A stretch of DNA of 64,000 nucleotides from a virus. Within the stretch, counting starts at the first letter, position 1, and each line of letters starts with the position of its first letter. The position numbers were made by a program, and so were the translations under genes. Under the pieces are notes generated by a model. That model searched no databases. It was not told the DNA's origin and saw only the letters and a list, made by a program, of their open reading frames with translations. Of the stretch, positions 2,434 through 64,000 are shown piece after piece. The stretch is from positions 1 to 64,000 of the IMG/VR virus record IMGVR_UViG_3300032770_000011; one strand, written 5' to 3'.

Positions 2434-3318
2434 ATGGCAATCCGAATAGAAGTCAGAAATCAGGCAGAATTTGATGCTTGCATCAAAGCTGGGAATATTG
2501 CTGTCGTTATCAATTGTAGCGTCGTAGCCAGGGAGAACTCTAGCGTCGAAGCCTGGGGGAACTCTAGCGTCGTAGCCAGGGAGAACTCTAGCGTCGAAGC
2601 CTGGGGGAACTCTAGCGTCGTAGCCTGGGGGAACTCTAGCGTCGAAGCCTGGGGGAACTCTAGCGTCGTAGCCTGGGAGAACTCTAGCGTCGTAGCCTGG
2701 GGGAACTCTAGCGTCGTAGCCTGGGGGAACTCTAGCGTCGTAGCCTGGGAGAACTCTAGCGTCGTAGCCTGGGGGAACTCTAGCGTCGTAGCCAGGGAGA
2801 ACTCTAGCGTCGTAGCCTGGGGGCTTGCCTTTATCCGGTGGTTCTCGTGCCTTAAGATCAAGGCATCTTTACAAGTTATCATCGCTAAAATCGGCGATGC
2901 TCCCGGTACCCAAGAAGGTGGTCGGATACTTCAATGCAATCTTCCCACAACACCAGCGGAGTGGTGTGAATTCTACGGCATCGAAGTCGCCGACGGTATC
3001 GCTATTCTATACAAGGCCGTCGATGATGACTACTCAACGCACAACGCCCGGCCTAAAAGCATCTTCTACACACCTGGCAATACCCCGTCAGCACCGGACT
3101 GGGATGGCGGTTTGGCTGAATGTGGTGGTGGGCTGCACTTCTCGCCTTCTACGCAAATGGCGCTAAGTTTCAATTCTTCGGCCAAGAAGTTTGTTGGCTG
3201 TCCAGTACGGGTAGAAGACATCGTCGTTCATCCAAAAGGCCAATACCCTGAGAAGGTAAAGGCCAAAGGATGTACCGCACCCGTCTTCGAAGTCAATCGG
3301 AAAGGGGAACGGCTATGA
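2434..3318 (+). CDS. octapeptide-repeat protein with conserved C-terminal domain
   Basis: 294 aa behind the leader ACATCATAGGAGAATTCAA. Residues 1-27 are a short non-repetitive cap, 28-131 are 13 copies of an octapeptide (SVVAWGNS and variants with E/V, W/R and G/E swaps), and about 165-294 form a globular domain with conserved-looking Gly, Trp and Cys positions (GGGLHFSP, VGCPVRVEDIVVHP). Short repeats with regular Val and Ser commonly fold as beta-helices. The C-terminal part resembles a domain (DUF7666-type, from memory) found behind similar repeats in phages and bacteria. The stop overlaps the next gene by ATGA. Biochemical role unknown. Confidence 0.75.
   Translation: MAIRIEVRNQAEFDACIKAGNIAVVINCSVVARENSSVEAWGNSSVVARENSSVEAWGNSSVVAWGNSSVEAWGNSSVVAWENSSVVAWGNSSVVAWGNSSVVAWENSSVVAWGNSSVVARENSSVVAWGLAFIRWFSCLKIKASLQVIIAKIGDAPGTQEGGRILQCNLPTTPAEWCEFYGIEVADGIAILYKAVDDDYSTHNARPKSIFYTPGNTPSAPDWDGGLAECGGGLHFSPSTQMALSFNSSAKKFVGCPVRVEDIVVHPKGQYPEKVKAKGCTAPVFEVNRKGERL
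2515..2823 (+). repeat. 24-bp in-frame tandem repeat array, 13 units
   Basis: Thirteen head-to-tail units of 24 bp (core AACTCTAGCGTCGTAGCC plus six variable bases). Variation is confined to a few positions: GTA/GAA, CTGG/CAGG and GGGG/GGAG, giving V/E, W/R and G/E alternation. The DNA conservation is stronger than the encoded fold needs, which points to recent unit expansion or homogenisation. Confidence 0.9.
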
Positions 3319-3407
3319 TCAAATCCCTCGTCGAGGAATCCCTCGCATTAGTCGCTCTCGGCCTATTTGCCGCGATGCTACTCGTCTGGGCAGCGGTGCT
3401 CTCGTGA
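3315..3407 (+). CDS. 30-aa single-span membrane peptide
   Basis: Overlaps the preceding stop by ATGA. The product MIKSLVEESLALVALGLFAA... is one amphipathic turn followed by a strongly hydrophobic helix. Supported by coupling to the repeat protein and by similarity in style to the other tiny membrane peptides of the operon. Function unknown. Confidence 0.5.
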   Translation: MIKSLVEESLALVALGLFAAMLLVWAAVLS

Positions 3408-3429
3408 TGCACTCTGTCCGTATATCTAT

Positions 3430-3509
3430 GCCTTGCCTTGCTCGGGTGCGGTGTGGTTGGGTACTCCTGGGCGGTGTTGGGCTCGGTCTGGTCAGGTATG
3501 GCATGGCTA
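3430..3509 (+). repeat. 5-bp periodic GGYNN tract (about 16 units)
   Basis: The intergenic DNA can be cut into consecutive pentamers that nearly all begin GGT or GGC (for example GGTGC GGTGT GGTTG, then GGTCT GGTCA GGTAT GGCAT). The last two bases of each pentamer vary freely. It ends just before the ribosome site of the gene at 3537. A second tract of the same design lies at 4890-4944. Confidence 0.8.
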
Positions 3510-3536
3510 CTCAAATAGCCAAAGGAGAAAAATAAC

Positions 3537-3728
3537 ATGACGTTACACAGTGTACGCTTCTACCGCTCAACAACGGAACCTGGGGTTTACCACGCCACGT
3601 GCTCTTGCGGCTGGGCAATGAGCGGGGACCTGCAAGAACTTCAGACCCGTGCTGCAACCCACGATCTGGACGAAATCCGAGAGCCGCCACTGCGGAAGGA
3701 AGGTTTCGTTTCCGGATTGCCGGACTGA
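3537..3728 (+). CDS. hypothetical 63-aa protein with CSCGW motif
   Basis: Ribosome site AAAGGAGAAAAATAAC before the ATG. The segment YHATCSCGWAMSGD followed by THD is typical of small single-Cys-pair proteins common in phages; there are too few ligands for a full zinc ribbon unless His residues take part. It sits directly behind the GGYNN tract. Confidence 0.7.
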   Translation: MTLHSVRFYRSTTEPGVYHATCSCGWAMSGDLQELQTRAATHDLDEIREPPLRKEGFVSGLPD

Positions 3729-3746: not shown

Positions 3747-3977
3747 ATGAACAAGCAGCGGAGAAAGGACCTGCGCGTAGCGTGGGATCACCTTGAAAGG
3801 GCGAAGGAGATCATCGAGACTGCCCAAAGCGAGGAGCAGGACTCTTTCGATAATCTCCCCGAAAATATGCAAGGTGGTGACCAGGGACAAAAGCTGGAAG
3901 AGAACGTGGACGCTCTACAAACCGCCTTCGATTCGTGCGAGGAAGCTTTATCCTCACTTGAAGTTCTAGTAGAGTAA
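3747..3977 (+). CDS. hypothetical 76-aa acidic helical protein
   Basis: Of two nearby ATGs, the second is chosen because AGGAGA lies 6 bp before it and touches the first. The product is a helical hairpin, acidic, with the segment SFDNLPENMQ between two heptad-like helices. I recall similar small phage and plasmid proteins of unknown role (AWDHLERA... DNLPE... SLEVL), but no function is known to me. Confidence 0.7.
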   Translation: MNKQRRKDLRVAWDHLERAKEIIETAQSEEQDSFDNLPENMQGGDQGQKLEENVDALQTAFDSCEEALSSLEVLVE

Positions 3978-4094
3978 ACAGCTTGGCTAAGTTGACGGCC
4001 TGGGCGAGCGGAAACGCTCTCTCCTATGCAGGAGCCTGGCGGGGACCCTGATAAAGTCAACATCCCCGCTACCTAATTTATGGAGTACCTTCAA

Positions 4095-4415
4095 ATGGAA
4101 AAGTCTTGGTTCATCTATAAGCTCAGTAATCTTTCTCTGCACGGCTGGCGTTCCTTTGGCGTAAAGCACGAGCAAATCAAAGACAACCGTGATATTTCTG
4201 CTCTTGCCCGCGCAGTAAAGTTATTGGAGGACTGCTTTCCTGAAATTGATTGGTTTAATCAGTACCACGAGTTTTGGGTTTTGGAGTGTCCGTGCGAGCA
4301 GCCTTTTGTTTGCGTCCGCCCTAATACAAACCCTTATGAAGCCGGTTACATTGTGTCGCCAATTAAACTTTCCTACCTCCCTACAGACGAAGTTTGGGAG
4401 AGAAAGTCCAAGTGA
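4095..4415 (+). CDS. hypothetical 106-aa protein
   Basis: The start is the ATG 9 bp after GGAG, not the in-frame ATG 15 bp upstream, which overlaps that GGAG. A soluble protein with many aromatics and three Cys (WVLECPCEQPFVCVRP). The stop overlaps the GTG start of the RuvC-like gene (GTGA), so the two are coupled; a helper role in recombination is possible but unproven. Confidence 0.65.
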   Translation: MEKSWFIYKLSNLSLHGWRSFGVKHEQIKDNRDISALARAVKLLEDCFPEIDWFNQYHEFWVLECPCEQPFVCVRPNTNPYEAGYIVSPIKLSYLPTDEVWERKSK

Positions 4416-4849
4416 AGATCATTGCCTTCGATCTCGGTAAACATTTTGCCTGGGCACACAACGCCCCGTACACCTGCGGCTATGTCGAACTGCAGGGCGT
4501 CAGAGCACACCGCTTCTGTCAGCTAATGAATTACCTACTCAAGCTGAAAGAGTTGAGGACTGCAGAAGTTGCCATATTTGAGTGCCCCTTTGCACGGGGG
4601 AGGGACGCAACAAGGTCTTTGTGGGGCTATGCCGGAGTCATCGAGGCCTGCGCTACAAAGTTGGGGTTGCCTGTGCTCGATGCAGCAACCCCCACAATAA
4701 AAGCCTTCGCAGCCAACCATGGAAAAGCACCAAAAAATGACATGATGAAAGCTGCTAAAACTATGGGCTATAGAGGCTCGAACGAACACGAAGCCGATGC
4801 TTGGTGCTTATTAAAATTTGCCGAATCTACTCTTGAACGTGTTACTTAG
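4412..4849 (+). CDS. RuvC-like Holliday junction resolvase / phage RNase H-fold nuclease
   Basis: 145 aa. Start is a GTG overlapping the preceding stop, with GGGAG 10 bp upstream; an ATG 18 bp earlier is possible. The acidic residues expected of RuvC-type nucleases are in place: VKIIAFDLGK near the N-terminus (first Asp), AIFECPF in the middle (Glu) and HEADAWCLL near the C-terminus (final Asp). Length fits the 140-180 aa of phage RuvC homologues. Expected to cut branched DNA intermediates. Followed by SbcD and SbcC homologues, so it belongs to a replication/recombination block. Confidence 0.8.
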   Translation: MKIIAFDLGKHFAWAHNAPYTCGYVELQGVRAHRFCQLMNYLLKLKELRTAEVAIFECPFARGRDATRSLWGYAGVIEACATKLGLPVLDAATPTIKAFAANHGKAPKNDMMKAAKTMGYRGSNEHEADAWCLLKFAESTLERVT

Positions 4850-41666: not shown

Positions 41667-42767
41667 TTAAGCGGTGGACTTACGATCCTTCAAGGAAATG
41701 ACGTTGTCGGGAACAGGTTCGCAGTGCAAAGTGCGCCAATGCTCGATGTAGTCGGCGGCTTTGCGCAAGAACTCTGGATTATCCTTAAAGTAGCCAAGCG
41801 CAATATTATGATTCTTACAGAGAAGACCGCGTACTTTACCATTGCTGTGATCGTGGTCTACTGAAAGAATATAAGCGCGTCCTGTTCTGTCGGGCGTAGG
41901 CATCTGCCCACAGATTGCGCAGACACCGTTCTGCTCCGCAAGTTTTGCTTTGTACAACGCAGCGCTGATTCCAAATTTCTTCAGCAACCGCTTATTCAAG
42001 TAGTAATCAGGATCGGAACTCTTCCTACGAGCGTTACGCGCCTTGATCCCTTCCCGAGTACGGTTATTGAACTCCGGCATAACCCAGTGTGTATTACCGG
42101 GGCCAAGGAGCTTTGCTGAGTCTTTAGCTGCAAGTACATAGCTTCGATCCGGTGGAAATCCTACCTCAGCAAATAGCTCAATAGGGCTACCCCAAGCATG
42201 CTTACCGCCAGTCACAAAGTTCAGCTTGCGCCAAACCCGTTTAGCATGATGGTTAGCGTCAGAAAACGCTTGCTGAAGAGGAGGGTCTTTACGGAGTTCA
42301 ATCCCTTCAGCTTTCGCCTTCTCAAGTGCGGCAGCAGCTTCTTCAACTGTCTTAAAGTGGCTACCAATAGCGCGAGAACCACCAGGCCCATAAAGGTGGG
42401 CTTGGAACCTACCATTCTTAGAGCGGGAGACGCCCTTAACGCCAGTGCTGTTTGTAACTCGTAAGCCTTGGTACTTCAGGACAGTCTCACTCTTCGACTG
42501 GGGAACAAGGTTCTCGATGTGCGTGTTCCCTGGATTACCGTCCTTGAAGGCGAGGTCCGCTGGGGGCCACTCACCGTGATGCCAGAACCAAACGAGGTGA
42601 TGTAAAGGAACGGTTTCACCGTCAACGCCAGCATAGCGGTAACGTTCTTTATTACCGCCAACAACATCACCGACCTTTACACGGGGCGATAGCCGAAGCT
42701 TGTAGCGAAGCTGCCCGGCAGTAGCGTCGTAATCGTAGAGAGTGCGGACTCGCGCAAGTGTGATCAT
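41667..42767 (-). CDS. HNH-AP2-Endonuclease VII fusion homing endonuclease
   Basis: 366 aa; start chosen at MITLARV behind GGAGGTTTCT. Three modules: an HNH_3-type domain (LHHLVWFWHHGEWPP, FKDGNPGNTHIENLVP) at 50-85, an AP2-like DNA-binding domain (GVKGVSRSKNGRFQAHL, FKTVEEAAAALEKA) at 110-150, and a C-terminal recombination endonuclease VII domain (CAICGQMP, LSVDHDHSNGKVRGLLCKNH) at 285-355. It lies directly after the capsid gene, has its own promoter and a hairpin over the ribosome site. A free-standing selfish element; the capsid gene itself looks intact. Confidence 0.85.
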   Translation of the reverse strand: MITLARVRTLYDYDATAGQLRYKLRLSPRVKVGDVVGGNKERYRYAGVDGETVPLHHLVWFWHHGEWPPADLAFKDGNPGNTHIENLVPQSKSETVLKYQGLRVTNSTGVKGVSRSKNGRFQAHLYGPGGSRAIGSHFKTVEEAAAALEKAKAEGIELRKDPPLQQAFSDANHHAKRVWRKLNFVTGGKHAWGSPIELFAEVGFPPDRSYVLAAKDSAKLLGPGNTHWVMPEFNNRTREGIKARNARRKSSDPDYYLNKRLLKKFGISAALYKAKLAEQNGVCAICGQMPTPDRTGRAYILSVDHDHSNGKVRGLLCKNHNIALGYFKDNPEFLRKAADYIEHWRTLHCEPVPDNVISLKDRKSTA

Positions 42768-42775
42768 AGAAACCT

Positions 42776-42799
42776 CCAACCCTAGAAAGTTAGGGTTGG
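42776..42799 (-). promoter_or_regulatory. hairpin overlapping the endonuclease ribosome site
   Basis: On the transcript, CCAACCCTA, loop ACTTTC, TAGGGTTGG forms a perfect 9-bp stem whose last two bases are the first two of the GGAGG Shine-Dalgarno. It lies between the promoter and the start codon, so it can limit translation of the endonuclease, as hairpins do for T4 homing endonucleases. Confidence 0.65.
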
Positions 42800-42801
42800 G
42801 A

Positions 42802-42830
42802 AGTATACTATTTTCAACTGCGCGAGCCAA
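42802..42830 (-). promoter_or_regulatory. sigma70-like promoter for the HNH endonuclease
   Basis: TTGGCT, 17 bp, TATACT on the - strand, with the transcript start expected just before the ribosome-site hairpin. One of the best host-type promoters in the window, consistent with a selfish gene that carries its own expression signals. Confidence 0.6.
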
Positions 42831-42872
42831 CATGTTTGTTTTCTGCCTTGGTGCAGAGATTATCCAGACACA

Positions 42873-59226: not shown

Positions 59227-59574
59227 TCAGTCTGCCGCCCGCCGCCACCCTTCCGGAACATGCTCACGCGCCGTGATAACCTTGTAAGTACCGGGCTTGA
59301 ATCCAAGCGGCTCATGGGTATCAAACTCACGTAGATGATTCAGCACGTCTGGCTTTTCCACGACGAGCAGGCAATCCAAGATTGAATCCGGCAGCTTATA
59401 CATCATGGTGCGTTCGGCTTCCATGACGTGGTGGTGGCCGGTTTCGGAATGCCCCACGATGACTTTGCCGTTCACGGGGGCAACCTTCTCGGCATTTGCC
59501 GGGACCTTAAAGTCATTGGGCAGCCTCACAAAGCGAAGTTCACCTTGCGCTGCAACAGTCTTAAACGTCTTCAT
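59227..59574 (-). CDS. conserved protein with GHSETGHHH motif (partner of repeat protein)
   Basis: 115 aa. NGKVIVGHSETGHHHVMEAE, then LLVVEKPDVLNHLREFDTHE and KPGTYKVITAREHVPEGWRR. The His cluster GHSETGHHHV suggests a metal site. I recall similar proteins encoded next to DUF6745-type proteins in plasmids and soil bacteria. The start overlaps the repeat protein's stop (ATGA), so the two are translationally coupled. Confidence 0.7.
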   Translation of the reverse strand: MKTFKTVAAQGELRFVRLPNDFKVPANAEKVAPVNGKVIVGHSETGHHHVMEAERTMMYKLPDSILDCLLVVEKPDVLNHLREFDTHEPLGFKPGTYKVITAREHVPEGWRRAAD

Positions 59575-60860
59575 GTTCTAACCTCCGGTGGAATGAAGTC
59601 CTTAGCGTCCAACTGCCAAAGCCACGCTTGCGCAGCCAAGGCCGTTTTTATCGTAGGTGGTACTGGTAAGGCAAACATACGCCCAGTCGCGCATTGAACC
59701 CTTAGAAATTGCTCATTGGGAGCATCTGGCAAATTGACACGGAGTAGCGTGCCAATTTCAGGGTCGGAATCGGCATCGATAACCTTCGCGTTAAGACCAA
59801 GTAGAATATTATCCCAGCCGATGATCTCGCAGGCAGCGCGTCTTAGTTCTGCATTAGTCTGCTTCAGAGCAATTGCTGGGGTCAGCTTAGCCTTGTTCTC
59901 AATCCAGTTTGCAGGAATACGAACGCCGTGCCAATGGTAGAGAGACCAGCCGTCCCGCCAACGGTGCGACGGGCCGTTTTCGCAATGCGGTAAGTTACGG
60001 TCATCTTTCTTGATTATTTCTGGGAAGTCACTCACAAGGCAGAACTCCTCGTGCATAACTCGGAAACCGCCATGAATTGCAGCTTGTTCCCAATAATAGT
60101 AAGCGGCGTGCTCTTTGAGTTCTAGGCCAAGAATATCACGGCAAGCAGTCAGGTAACAGTCGTACCCAGCCCACATGTTACCACCCTGATAAACCTCTGA
60201 CCAACGCTTTGCACACTCAAGCCCAAGTTTCCCGCTCAGATTAAGGCAGGCCAACGCGGCTTGCTCCTCTGCTGTTCCGGTGGCGCTGTAGGTGGCGCTG
60301 GCGGTGGCGCTGGCGGTGGCGCTGTAGGTGGCGCTGTAGGTGGCGCTGGCGGTGGCGCTGTAGGTGGCGCTGGCGGTGGCGCTGGCGGTGGCGCTGTAGG
60401 TGGCGCTGTAGGTGGCGCTGTAGGTGGCGCTGGCGGTGGCGCTGTAGGTGGCGCTGGCGGTGGCGCTGGCGGTGGCGCTGTAGGTGGCGCTGTCGGTGGC
60501 GCTGTAGGTGGCGCTGTAGGTGGCGCTGTAGGTGGCGCTGTAGGTGGCGCTGTAGGTGGCGCTGGCGGTGGCGCTGTCGGTGGCGCTGTTTTTCTTATTT
60601 TTACGGTTATACCAGATTGCGGCGCTCGCTCCATAAGCAAAAGCCATCACGAGCGGCGAGGGCACAATAACAACTCGCGGTTTCTTAAGATTTGCCGCAG
60701 CGTAAAGACCTTCAATCGCCGGGATTATCTTTTCCGGCTCGATTGGCTCCGTTCGCATAGCTCTGGCAATCCAGAGTTTTGCGTGTTCGTCCATCCGACG
60801 CTTTTCATCAGCGGTTATCCCCCCATAAGCCCTGGTCTTTGTGCGAATAATCTTAGTCAA
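59571..60860 (-). CDS. tetrapeptide-repeat protein with DUF6745-like C-terminal domain
   Basis: 429 aa, TTG start behind AGGAGGG. N-terminal 91 residues (KIIPAIEGLYAAANLKKPRV, PLVMAFAYGASAAIWYN), then 26 tetrapeptides SATY/SATA/SATD (92-195), then a domain with AGYDCYLTACRDILGLELKE, LPHCENGPSHRWRDGWSLYH, VRIPANWIE, NAELRRAACEIIGWD and GRMFALPVPPTIKTALAAQA. The last part matches what I know of DUF6745 ('NGP..RW.DGW.LY.WHG...', 'NAE.RR...E..G'). Same architecture idea as the protein at 2434: cap, repeat array, conserved domain. Confidence 0.75.
   Translation of the reverse strand: MTKIIRTKTRAYGGITADEKRRMDEHAKLWIARAMRTEPIEPEKIIPAIEGLYAAANLKKPRVVIVPSPLVMAFAYGASAAIWYNRKNKKNSATDSATASATYSATYSATYSATYSATYSATDSATYSATASATASATYSATASATYSATYSATYSATASATASATYSATASATYSATYSATASATASATYSATGTAEEQAALACLNLSGKLGLECAKRWSEVYQGGNMWAGYDCYLTACRDILGLELKEHAAYYYWEQAAIHGGFRVMHEEFCLVSDFPEIIKKDDRNLPHCENGPSHRWRDGWSLYHWHGVRIPANWIENKAKLTPAIALKQTNAELRRAACEIIGWDNILLGLNAKVIDADSDPEIGTLLRVNLPDAPNEQFLRVQCATGRMFALPVPPTIKTALAAQAWLWQLDAKDFIPPEVRT
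60276..60587 (-). repeat. 12-bp in-frame tandem repeat array, 26 units
   Basis: Twenty-six uninterrupted 12-bp units (AGCGCCACC plus a variable triplet TAC, GCC or GAC on the coding strand; the last unit encodes Gly). Only the fourth codon varies, giving Tyr, Ala or Asp. Total length 312 bp, the same as 13 units of the 24-bp array at 2515. Such an array is prone to slippage in multiples of 12 bp, which keeps the frame. Confidence 0.9.
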
Positions 60861-60885: not shown

Positions 60886-60912
60886 AAACATACTCTTTCC
60901 GTAATCCGGCAA
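60886..60912 (-). promoter_or_regulatory. intergenic signals between terminase and repeat protein
   Basis: In the 54-bp gap, the - strand carries one TTGCCGGATTA copy (60902-60912, the operator-like motif) and an AAGAGTATGTTT element (60886-60897), then AGGAGGG. Together these suggest independent, regulated expression of the downstream repeat-protein module. Confidence 0.4.
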
Positions 60913-60914
60913 GA

Positions 60915-63812
60915 CTACACACCATACTGTTCCGCCACAGAGCGAGTGTTATGCTGAAAGCGACTGTCCTCCAGATCCATTGCCGAACTCTCTTCGGCCA
61001 GTGTCAACAATCCATTCTCGCGAGCCCAGTTCAGAAATTGCGTAACGGTATCGTGAAGGTCATCATGGTCTGCTTTCGGAAAGGAGGCACTCTGCCCAAT
61101 TACCTGCTCTGCCCATTTGGTATTCGGAGCCCAGATAGCATCATCATTGAAAAGCGGCACGACCGAATGCGTGCGCGAAACCTTGTCACCCACCGGCTCC
61201 AACAACTCCACACCGAAGTTCTCACGGGTAAATAGCCGCTTGATCTCGTCAGCAACATCCTGCCCTCGCGTCTTATTCTCGATCAATAGCCGCCTCACCT
61301 TGTAGCGTTTGCAGGTATCCCCAACCAGTTCAATCAATCCGAAGGATTCGCGCTGACGAGCGTCGAAGTTCACCTTCGCTTCACCTGGGAAAGCTTCTAC
61401 AAGCCGCCCACGCAAGGGCAATCGCTTTGCCCACGCATACATCAGCATAGCGCGGCGGTTCTTGGCCTTGTCCAGCCAGATGCCCCAGACCGTCATGGCA
61501 TTGTAGTCATTCTCCTCCTTGCGGCCATAAGACGTATCGACAGAGCCAACTACGAGTTCGAAGTGCGGAAACTCTTTCCTTGCCGGACCCCACTCCAATC
61601 CATATTCCTGCGCAACTTCGCCATTCCAATTCAACCACCAGTCCCGCTTGATAATACCACCGCCCTTGGGTACAGGTTCCTGCTGGAGACGACCAGCTGC
61701 CATGTAGGTTCCGAGCCGCGACTTGATGCGGGCGACTTCGGCTTCCCCGAAGCGTTCCGGCCACATCAATTCGCCTTCTTCCTCGCGCGGATCTTCCCAA
61801 GGCTCATCGTCGTCATATTGCGGCAACTTGACGGTCACATTGTGACGAAGCGTATCATGCTCCATCGGAATCATCAAGTGCGTCCAGTCCTCGTCGTCGC
61901 TATCCAGAATAACGCCAGAGAGGTCACGCTCATGCAGGCGCTGCATGACGACGACGATGGCGGACCGCTTCGGATCATTAAGGCGAGTGCCGGACAACTC
62001 CTTCCACCAGCTTTCCACTTTATTGCGATCAGCGTCCGTTTCAACTACCTTCTCGGTTTCTGTGTTATGAGGATCGTCACAGTTATGAACTAAAATCCCC
62101 TCAGCAAAATAGTTGTGTCCCGGAGCTACCCGGAGGTTGTAAGTAGCTGCTTCGTACCCGGCTCTCTCAACAGAGCAGACAGTTTTTCTTTCCACATCGC
62201 GCGGGATTTTGGACCTCCATGCATACCCCCGTGGCACCGCCCGCAGAGAGTAATCAAGTTCATTGGATCCAAGTTCTGCCGATTGTAGTCGATGTGGTGA
62301 ACCTGAAACGCTTGTCTTCCGTACCGATGAATACGCCCACAAAGACGACAGTTGTGGTTGTCCCGAGCTCGAATCAAAGCCTTGAATTCCTTGTTCCAAG
62401 CCTTTGGATATGTCCGGAGTTGTTGCCCGTGAACGTAGTTGCTGTTCCCAGCCCCCTTCATGCGTTGTGAATGTAAATTGTCTGCACAGCGTCGAGAACA
62501 GCAAAGAGCTGTCCCGTGCTTTTGGCGCCAAGAAAAAGCTACATAACTTATCAAAAAGAACTCCGCACAAACCACGCATGTACAGAGTTTCTTTCGCTTG
62601 ATTTTGCGACGCCCTACTCCGCTGCATTCGTACGAGCAGTACTTCCCTCCACCTTTCTTTGCGAAGCCGCTCTTCACTGAAAACGGCGTCCCGCAAACTT
62701 TGCATGTACGTTGAACTCTGCCGCCCTGCCATGCAGGGTTGTTCTGACCTACAGAAGCTTGACCAAAACATTGGTGACTGCAAAACATTCCCTTTATATT
62801 CTTCAATGACCGCCTGTAATGTGCAGCGCATTTGTAGAACAGCTTGCCACATTCTTCGCAAGAAACAGTCTTTCCTTTCCTTAAAGGATTTTTTGCGCGC
62901 CATAGAGTGGAACACGCTTTGCTGCAACACTTTTGATGACTCGAAGGTTTTGTACGGAACGTTTTGCCGCACTCTGGGCAAACTACCCAACGTGATGGCC
63001 CAGACGCAATCCCCGACGGCGACTTCTTTTGCTTTAATGTATCCCCGCCCTTCAACGAAGACGAGGTGGTCTTCAGTGCATCGAAGACTGCCAGAATCCC
63101 AACAGATTCTGACGGTTTCTCTTCCTGGGTTTTTCTCGTATTTCTCAACATCTTGCCAAATAACAGAGCCTTGGTATTCGCCTGCAATCTTCACTGAAAG
63201 CTGTTGCTCTACAAGTTGACCAATCGGAAGCCAGCCCTGATTCGTTAATACCCGCTCTTTATACGGAAGGCAAATGACAATATCACCACCGAGGCCGAGC
63301 AAAGATCCACTAACTGATGTAGACTGTCTAGAACCACCTAGGGTGTTGTCAAACTTCGCTTTCGTGTTCTGATCTTCAGTCAATTCGAATTTGCCGCCCC
63401 AGTATTTCTGATACCAGGGACTCAACAATAACCGCCGCATCGTGTTCGCAGAGCTCATAGCGAGAACGCCATTGTAGCTGCCACAAAGGAACTTGACCTT
63501 CGAGCCTGACCAATAGGATTCTTCTGCCCGCGCCCACGTCCAGGCAGGCCAGCAGATAGACGCTACAGTCGTCTTGGAACAACGGGGAGGAACGTTGATG
63601 AGAAGACGAGGGATCTGCCCTAGGGTCACTGCTTCAAGGTGATCGCAGATTGCATCGATCGCCCAGCATTGCTGATAGATAGCACTGTCTATACTAGACC
63701 AGCCACCTTGGAGAAATTCGGAAAGACTGTTTTCGTAACACTCTTTGGCTTCAAGAGTATGATAGCGTTCTATTTTCTCCCGAAGGGCTGCGAGCTTCTC
63801 CGCGTCCGCCAT
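60915..63812 (-). CDS. terL: terminase large subunit with intein
   Basis: 965 codons: exteins of 180 and 388 aa around a 397-aa intein, 568 aa after splicing. ATPase: NVPPRCSKTTVAS (Walker A, about 73-85), LLGLGGDIVI joined by splicing to CDDPHNTE (Walker B). Nuclease: GSVDTSYGRKEENDYNAMTV, RRLLIENKTRGQDVADEI, KADHDDLHDTVTQFLNWA, the three acidic positions expected of an RNase H-fold terminase nuclease. It packages DNA through the portal. The intein sits exactly at the ATPase acidic motif, a common location for phage inteins. Preceded by a cold-shock-like gene; no small terminase is in the window. Confidence 0.9.
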   Translation of the reverse strand: MADAEKLAALREKIERYHTLEAKECYENSLSEFLQGGWSSIDSAIYQQCWAIDAICDHLEAVTLGQIPRLLINVPPRCSKTTVASICWPAWTWARAEESYWSGSKVKFLCGSYNGVLAMSSANTMRRLLLSPWYQKYWGGKFELTEDQNTKAKFDNTLGGSRQSTSVSGSLLGLGGDIVICLPYKERVLTNQGWLPIGQLVEQQLSVKIAGEYQGSVIWQDVEKYEKNPGRETVRICWDSGSLRCTEDHLVFVEGRGYIKAKEVAVGDCVWAITLGSLPRVRQNVPYKTFESSKVLQQSVFHSMARKKSFKERKDCFLRRMWQAVLQMRCTLQAVIEEYKGNVLQSPMFWSSFCRSEQPCMAGRQSSTYMQSLRDAVFSEERLRKERWREVLLVRMQRSRASQNQAKETLYMRGLCGVLFDKLCSFFLAPKARDSSLLFSTLCRQFTFTTHEGGWEQQLRSRATTPDISKGLEQGIQGFDSSSGQPQLSSLWAYSSVRKTSVSGSPHRLQSAELGSNELDYSLRAVPRGYAWRSKIPRDVERKTVCSVERAGYEAATYNLRVAPGHNYFAEGILVHNCDDPHNTETEKVVETDADRNKVESWWKELSGTRLNDPKRSAIVVVMQRLHERDLSGVILDSDDEDWTHLMIPMEHDTLRHNVTVKLPQYDDDEPWEDPREEEGELMWPERFGEAEVARIKSRLGTYMAAGRLQQEPVPKGGGIIKRDWWLNWNGEVAQEYGLEWGPARKEFPHFELVVGSVDTSYGRKEENDYNAMTVWGIWLDKAKNRRAMLMYAWAKRLPLRGRLVEAFPGEAKVNFDARQRESFGLIELVGDTCKRYKVRRLLIENKTRGQDVADEIKRLFTRENFGVELLEPVGDKVSRTHSVVPLFNDDAIWAPNTKWAEQVIGQSASFPKADHDDLHDTVTQFLNWARENGLLTLAEESSAMDLEDSRFQHNTRSVAEQYGV
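62082..63272 (-). mobile_element. intein in the terminase (397 aa)
   Basis: Residue 1 is Cys (CLPYKERVLTNQGWLPIGQL), block B is SLRCTEDHLVFVEGRGYI with the T-x-x-H type residues, and the C-terminal blocks are TYNLRVAPGHNYFAEGILVH followed by Asn and the +1 Cys of CDDPHNTE. All residues needed for class 1 splicing are present. Between the splicing halves the intein frame stays open for about 300 codons but shows no endonuclease motif of its own; an HNH gene lies there in another frame. Confidence 0.85.
62126..63187 (-). CDS. HNH endonuclease nested in the intein in a different reading frame
   Basis: Up to 353 aa, shifted by one base relative to the terminase/intein frame. Several zinc fingers (CPECGKTF, CEECGKLF, CKVCGTPF, CVVCAEFF, each with a second Cys pair) are followed by a C-terminal HNH core: NCRLCGRIHRYGRQAFQVHH, DYNRQNLDPMNLITLCGRCH, HGG. 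The first start is a TTG; an ATG 12 codons later is possible. It should promote homing of the intein. Expression needs internal initiation, as its frame differs from terL. Confidence 0.75.
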   Translation of the reverse strand: MQANTKALLFGKMLRNTRKTQEEKPSESVGILAVFDALKTTSSSLKGGDTLKQKKSPSGIASGPSRWVVCPECGKTFRTKPSSHQKCCSKACSTLWRAKNPLRKGKTVSCEECGKLFYKCAAHYRRSLKNIKGMFCSHQCFGQASVGQNNPAWQGGRVQRTCKVCGTPFSVKSGFAKKGGGKYCSYECSGVGRRKIKRKKLCTCVVCAEFFLISYVAFSWRQKHGTALCCSRRCADNLHSQRMKGAGNSNYVHGQQLRTYPKAWNKEFKALIRARDNHNCRLCGRIHRYGRQAFQVHHIDYNRQNLDPMNLITLCGRCHGGMHGGPKSRAMWKEKLSALLREPGTKQLLTTSG

Positions 63813-63817
63813 GGCAT

Positions 63818-64000
63818 CTATGTACCAAGTAGCTTGATAGAGACGGCTTTGGGACCTTTGCCGGGTACTGCTACGGCATCGAATTCCAGCTTGTCGCCTG
63901 CCTTCACAGGCAGTGTTATGCCAGACCGACGCAATTCATTGGCATGAATGAACACATCAGAGGCGCCATTCTCTCGTCTACAGAAGCCGAAGCCCTTGTC
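63818..64000 (-). CDS. cold-shock domain protein (N-terminus outside window)
   Basis: 60 visible residues, open to the window edge. DKGFGFCRRENGASDVFIHA contains RNP1 (KGFGF) and RNP2 (DVFIH) of CspA-type proteins; then VKAGDKLEFDAVAVPGKGPK and AVSIKLLG complete the OB fold. An RNA/ssDNA chaperone, often carried by phages. It ends 6 bp before the terminase start. Confidence 0.8.
   Translation of the reverse strand, partial: DKGFGFCRRENGASDVFIHANELRRSGITLPVKAGDKLEFDAVAVPGKGPKAVSIKLLGT

Follow-up and report, generated by a model that had tools for sequence, protein, structure and literature searches.

The terminase (TerL) gene of the analyzed virus contains an intein, and the sequence comparisons presented here make it very probable that the homing-endonuclease gene of this intein is an independent overprinted gene, with one mRNA read in two frames. 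In textbook inteins, the endonuclease is an in-frame domain. Here, an HNH/zinc-finger gene occupies the +1 frame of an uninterrupted TerL-intein frame. The window, i.e. the whole stretch of DNA that was analyzed, comprises 64,000 nt of an IMG/VR virus record of 103,399 bases.

The TerL intein and the nested nuclease gene

The following features were identified at the TerL locus.

60915-63812, minus strand: TerL-intein ORF, open for 965 codons without interruption
63273..63812, minus strand: TerL N-extein, ATPase part, 180 aa, ending GSLLGLGGDIVI; residues 13-180 match phrog_4758
62082..63272, minus strand: intein, 397 aa, from Cys1 to His-Asn (TIGR01443, TIGR01445, PF14890)
62982..63272, minus strand: intein N-terminal splicing domain, residues 1-97 (pLDDT; profile match to the NrdJ-1 and Spl DnaX inteins)
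62208..62981, minus strand: intein centre in the intein frame, a stop-free, mostly low-confidence, unconserved linker (pLDDT; substitutions in relatives)
62082..62207, minus strand: intein C-terminal splicing domain, residues 356-397 (pLDDT; TIGR01443)
60918..62081, minus strand: TerL C-extein, nuclease domain, beginning C-DDPHN with Cys+1 (phrog_38, 2.5e-67; TIGR01630)
62126..63187, minus strand: ORF for the zinc-finger HNH nuclease, +1 relative to the intein frame, 353 codons when read from its first TTG (PF01844, phrog_1271)
62982..63187, minus strand: doubly open segment over the intein N-domain with the candidate nuclease starts TTG 63187 and ATG 63151; relatives show constraint in both frames over the equivalent segment
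62453..63030, minus strand: CxxC zinc-finger array in the HNH frame (sequence; conserved Cys columns; strands and helices in the AlphaFold model)
62225..62350, minus strand: HNH catalytic domain, ORF residues 280-321, HHIDYNRQNLDPMNLITLCGRCH (PF01844; invariant columns)
62126..62207, minus strand: 3'-terminal part of the HNH ORF, which shares DNA with the intein C-domain; the ORF stops 47 nt before the intein end

The intein is inserted one residue ahead of DDP in the TerL Walker-B motif. The junction in the window reads GGDIVI/C...HN/CDDPHN (slashes mark the intein ends), and the aligned intein-less TerL homologues have GGDLIIVDDPHN and similar sequences, the site being conserved and uninterrupted in them. 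All sequence features of a class 1 HINT intein (Cys1, TxxH, a C-terminal Asn, and Cys, Ser, or Thr at +1) are present: Cys1 in CLPYKERVL, block B in CTEDH, and the C-terminal NYFAEGILVHN followed by Cys+1. Both intein halves lie inside the single 965-codon ORF, and thus the intein is not of the split type. The initial annotation had described a frame open for 965 codons, splicing blocks intact at both intein ends, a 568-aa TerL, and a 353-codon HNH/zinc-finger gene in another frame. The ORF coordinates, the motifs with the TIGR01443 and TIGR01445 matches, and the exact intein boundaries (965-397 = 568 aa) bear out this description. The nuclease length of 353 aa presumes the first TTG as the start, and the conserved HNH sequence begins near 63040.

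The nuclease ORF combines an HNH motif with a DNA-binding module, the zinc-finger array, as expected from the sequence of a homing-type endonuclease. It matches PF01844 with a score of 24.4 (gathering score 21.4) and phrog_1271 at 3.7e-30, and the catalytic H, H, and N as well as the Cys columns are invariant in 39 homologues.

The splicing domains of the intein are predicted to adopt the HINT fold. In the AlphaFold model of the intein frame, pLDDT is 81-98 for residues 1-100 and 75-97 over residues 351-397 (94-97 from residue 361), and mostly 38-70 in the centre, where a few helical segments reach 81. A Foldseek search with this model retrieved the Spl DnaX mini-intein at 4.8e-7, the model resembling solved mini-inteins. 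The model of the HNH frame has a mean pLDDT of 76 and shows repeated zinc modules and an HNH region; against the PDB it yielded no Foldseek match at E <= 0.001, and its HNH-type and zinc-finger matches carry no weight. Phage group I introns often carry HNH genes, and one might read the insert as an RNA intron (group I or II) that encodes the HNH, the intein frame being spurious. This is very improbable, given the intact HINT blocks and predicted fold and the uninterrupted frame, and the reading was rejected since a search for Rfam introns in 60900-63820 gave no match.

Recurrence of the layout in related TerL inteins

A tblastn search with the window HNH led to TerL of two isolated phages, S-EIVl of Synechococcus and Clown of Gordonia; in both, the HNH is likewise in +1 and the TerL-intein frame is uninterrupted. 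At the DNA level, the window gene had no match among phages, and when the window HNH alone served as protein query against viral contigs, only three loci were retrieved. Profile searches covered IMG/VR and one genome per prokaryote species. The first scan of prokaryote genome contigs yielded no confirmed relative, and the second yielded relatives in Streptomyces, a Methanosaeta MAG, Fictibacillus, and an actinobacterium. In total, 127 HNH matches (duplicates included) have both intein halves in one ORF and the HNH in +1. After filtering and removal of identical copies, the set, referred to as class A, contains 74 inteins in 47 clusters. Class A cases were recognised by the spanning ORF, and the only strong HNH matches (profile score >120) lacking such an ORF were those cut by a contig end.

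The HNH is in +1 in 74 of 74 class A inteins, with none in frame and none in +2. Hence the nuclease of the window and of all class A members is placed otherwise than in canonical endonuclease inteins, where it is in frame. Cys1 is present in 74/74, the C-terminal Asn in 73/74, and the following Cys in 72/74. The sources include IMG/VR contigs, isolated phages, complete Streptomyces plasmids, a Fictibacillus genome, and a Methanosaeta MAG; such a sporadic distribution is consistent with HNH homing.

The recurrence bears directly on a sequencing frameshift, which had been named at the outset as a possible source of the layout. Canonical intein endonucleases share the intein frame, and an ordinary nuclease of this kind could in principle be masked by a compensating pair of frameshifts from sequencing or assembly. 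This is extremely improbable and was rejected by recurrence: the same register is found in 47 independent clusters, among them complete Streptomyces plasmids and the isolated phages Clown and S-EIVl. In addition, the overlap regions are constrained in both frames.

A second TerL site with the nuclease in +2

Weak matches led to a further group of inteins, class B, in the TerL nuclease domain, mostly at a site of the form ...NH/C...HN/CxDAxRY. Their nuclease is of a different HNH type from that of class A. Examples are provided by Tetrasphaera TJE1, Acinetobacter phage Highwayman, Rhodobacteraceae LS06, and many IMG/VR contigs. The HNH is in +2 within one open intein ORF in 74 matches and in frame in one (L216); in nine more, the intein halves are in separate ORFs, resembling fractured genes. 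One TerL ORF (L147 / L213:1-2496) carries two inteins, both with an out-of-frame HNH; the one at the ATPase site, truncated where the contig ends, has it in +1, and the one at the nuclease site in +2.

Open frames and selection

The expected number of stops was obtained by permuting synonymous codons of the HNH gene, which preserves the HNH protein and codon usage. In the window, the intein frame contains 0 stops, compared with a mean of 15.6 in permuted HNH genes (p < 1/2000). For class A, 0 stops are observed vs 343 expected (32 distinct genes), and for class B, 0 vs 112.6; the third frame of class B contains 947 stops vs 1046 expected (65 distinct genes in both cases). In HNH relatives outside inteins, stop counts match the expectation. 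Moreover, the register used by class A tends to hold more stops in these relatives, and therefore ease of staying open does not explain the choice of register.

A substitution map was made from 28 equal-length S-EIVl-like inteins, with omega calculated by the Nei-Gojobori method. Substitutions fall on third positions of the intein frame in codons 0-38, then on third positions of the HNH frame in codons 45-300, and again on those of the intein frame at the C-end. Correspondingly, intein omega is 0.24 in codons 0-38, both frames evolve slowly in codons 38-95, HNH omega is 0.15 vs 1.26 for the intein in codons 100-296, and intein omega is 0.28 in the C-terminal codons 296-330. A similar pattern is observed in the Streptomyces group, with an intein omega of 0.15 in codons 0-40 and 0.18 for HNH vs 1.94 for the intein in codons 100-300. 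The window's nearest relatives are only ~36% identical, so no dN/dS is computable for its own lineage. In the relatives, comparison of the two frames reveals selection on the intein at the ends, on the HNH in the middle, and on both in the overlaps, in agreement with the originally claimed selection in the HNH frame.

Of 827 HNH-synonymous differences between close relatives, 763 alter an intein residue, compared with 760.7 expected without intein selection, and 0 create an intein-frame stop, compared with 11 expected; as the pairs are non-independent, these counts are descriptive and do not constitute a test. Across the central HNH region, amino acids of the intein frame evolve neutrally, and selection acts only on the absence of stops. 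Only the second half of the intein N-domain and the intein C-domain show dual coding at the amino-acid level. The dual coding and the retention of the intein frame proposed in the initial annotation are thereby supported, with the refinement that in the centre the intein frame is selected for freedom from stops alone.

Several class A derivatives have a reduced nuclease. Three (L207, L208, L145) have internal HNH deletions and still keep the intein frame open, possibly representing late stages of the homing cycle. One S-EIVl-like copy has a stop in the HNH frame. An AT-rich copy (L143:2687-3764) has stops in both the intein frame and the HNH frame, and may be either decayed or read with another genetic code. 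The shortened or broken HNH in L207, L208, L145, and L143 could suggest that the HNH frame is a decayed relic and that the frames are open by chance. Such an origin is highly unlikely, in view of the stop deficit in the window and the family, an HNH omega of 0.15-0.18, and the invariant catalytic and Cys columns; the stop deficit and omega led us to reject it for the family. HNH frames full of stops, suggested earlier as a sign against the overprinted gene, are not a feature of the homologues, the HNH being broken or shortened only in these few class A derivatives.

Start and end of the nuclease

In 20 of the 47 class A clusters, an HNH-frame start codon with a Shine-Dalgarno (SD) site occurs at one position of the N-domain (alignment columns 68-76, picked after seeing the start counts). 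When synonymous codons of the intein frame are shuffled, 7.7 +- 1.8 clusters have such a signal at these columns, with a maximum of 12 in 300 shuffles, and the other two frames contain 3 and 0. The signals are absent in over half of the class A clusters. No conserved start codon was found directly ahead of the first zinc finger in class A; the conserved position is further upstream, in the N-domain. In the S-EIVl-like group, TTG is present at intein codon 38, where HNH-type selection sets in, in 27 of 28 members. In class B, an ATG with an SD site follows the N-domain in 31 of 65 genes, compared with 2 and 5 in the other frames. The window nuclease has no convincing SD site, its best candidate start being ATG 63151 without SD.

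Another scenario is programmed +1 ribosomal frameshifting in the intein N-domain, yielding a TerL-N/intein-N/HNH fusion and no free nuclease. It would fit the invariable +1 register of class A and the several members, the window among them, without a good start or SD site near the first zinc finger. We nevertheless regard it as improbable, since the start and SD signals of class A are enriched at a fixed position and in the HNH frame only, and class B has its HNH in +2, with the same frame preference of ATG and SD; nor did a common slippery site become apparent in these comparisons. The pattern favours internal initiation over frameshifting, and the separate initiation of the nuclease proposed in the initial annotation gains its support from this enrichment in relatives, the window itself having no clear SD site.

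In 28 of the 47 class A clusters, the nuclease ORF spans the whole intein C-domain and passes the intein end, and the commonest stop in these clusters is 4 nt past it, inside the first C-extein codons. As the nuclease ends and the splicing domains share DNA, the register would be locked. HNH identity correlates with that of the intein, both at the non-overlapped N-end (Mantel r 0.45, p <= 0.001) and in the C-domain (Mantel r 0.58, p <= 0.001); given this correlated divergence, the pair appears to be inherited together.

From these data we infer splicing, translation of both products, cleavage, and homing, as follows. Ribosomes from the TerL start would read through to give a TerL-intein-TerL precursor, from which the intein would excise itself, leaving the 568-aa TerL; in the precursor, the intein centre would be a meaningless stop-free linker. 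Ribosomes starting within the intein N-domain in the +1 frame would produce a free zinc-finger HNH nuclease. The target of this nuclease would be the Walker-B codons of TerL genes that lack the intein, and the whole element would be copied in during repair of the cut. Considering both classes, it is reasonably likely that at least two large TerL-intein lineages independently uncoupled the endonuclease from splicing, making it an overprinted, separately initiated gene whose frame is fixed by lineage (+1 for the ATPase-site inteins, +2 for those in the nuclease domain).

Relation to known systems

The closest known case is the ShiLan domain, or hidden HNH insertions in phage methylases, described in 2025, with an out-of-frame HNH and no splicing domain (Arsenault, Gosselin, Gogarten; PMC11855218; also PMC12613952). 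As in the window, an out-of-frame HNH/zinc-finger gene lies in an open host frame, is sporadic, and is proposed to home. The ShiLan-type copy of phage Mantra has a tblastn match (8e-8) to a class A HNH; its HNH is in +2, whereas that of class A is in +1. ShiLan insertions have no intein domains, probably do not splice, and reside in a non-essential methylase, whereas TerL is an essential gene whose function would be preserved by the full intein. In addition, the class of TerL inteins with an out-of-frame HNH is large, unlike ShiLan. One DNA methylase ORF (L148:2391-5078) contains an intein-like insert with an HNH ORF in +1 (2799-3576), and a second out-of-frame HNH is located downstream at 3943-4564.

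Fractured genes with split inteins, as reportedly described by Dassa and coworkers in 2009, are said to carry a free-standing endonuclease as its own gene between the intein halves. Class B relatives of this appearance occur in Lactobacillus phage CL2 and Vibrio phage 1.245.O. In fractured genes the halves are separate, whereas the intein frame of the window is continuous and splicing would be in cis. The class B relatives with split genes suggest a short path between overprinted and fractured inteins.

Self-excision on expression in E. coli was reported for the dCTP deaminase intein of cyanophage CL131, which contains an HNH (PMC6293099). Like the window intein, it combines a HINT domain and a homing-type nuclease in one insert; its nuclease is described within the same protein, whereas that of the window is a separate gene in another frame. 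For cyanophage Mic1, TerL inteins are reported in both domains, ATPase and nuclease; excerpts of that paper describe the endonuclease as belonging to the intein protein and say nothing of a difference in frame (PMC7156551). Phage S-EIVl (KJ410740) has a TerL intein that is a class A member by sequence. The papers searched contain no report of an out-of-frame endonuclease inside an intein; a 2025 preprint on 'non-canonical' actinophage inteins may overlap. The out-of-frame HNH is already known from methylases, and its place inside an intein sets the TerL arrangement apart from these.

An in-frame endonuclease ties the nuclease dose to synthesis of the host protein, and separate products could let nuclease expression be tuned alone. 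Overprinting imposes a no-stop rule at every position and ends that suit two proteins. The class A and B inteins provide a rare set of long, recurrent same-strand overprints in which selection can be dissected region by region.

Annotation pipelines can miss the nested nuclease or truncate TerL, so that a hallmark gene for phage classification is lost, as in Streptomyces plasmid prophages in RefSeq. For two such plasmids (L222, L223), RefSeq calls the nested HNH, and TerL appears only as a truncated 'hypothetical protein'.

Other features of the window

A 429-aa ORF adjoining TerL (59571-60860, minus strand) contains ~26 copies of a 12-bp repeat (60279-60589) encoding SATY/SATA units, and this repeat holds long ORFs open in other frames too. 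Another tandem repeat, ~13 copies of a 24-bp unit (2517-2823, plus strand), lies within ORF 2434-3318, which matches phrog_15773 (function unknown). A gene at 41667-42833 (minus strand), adjoining a putative major head protein gene, encodes a 388-aa protein with a match to an HNH endonuclease family at its N-end and to endonuclease VII at its C-end.
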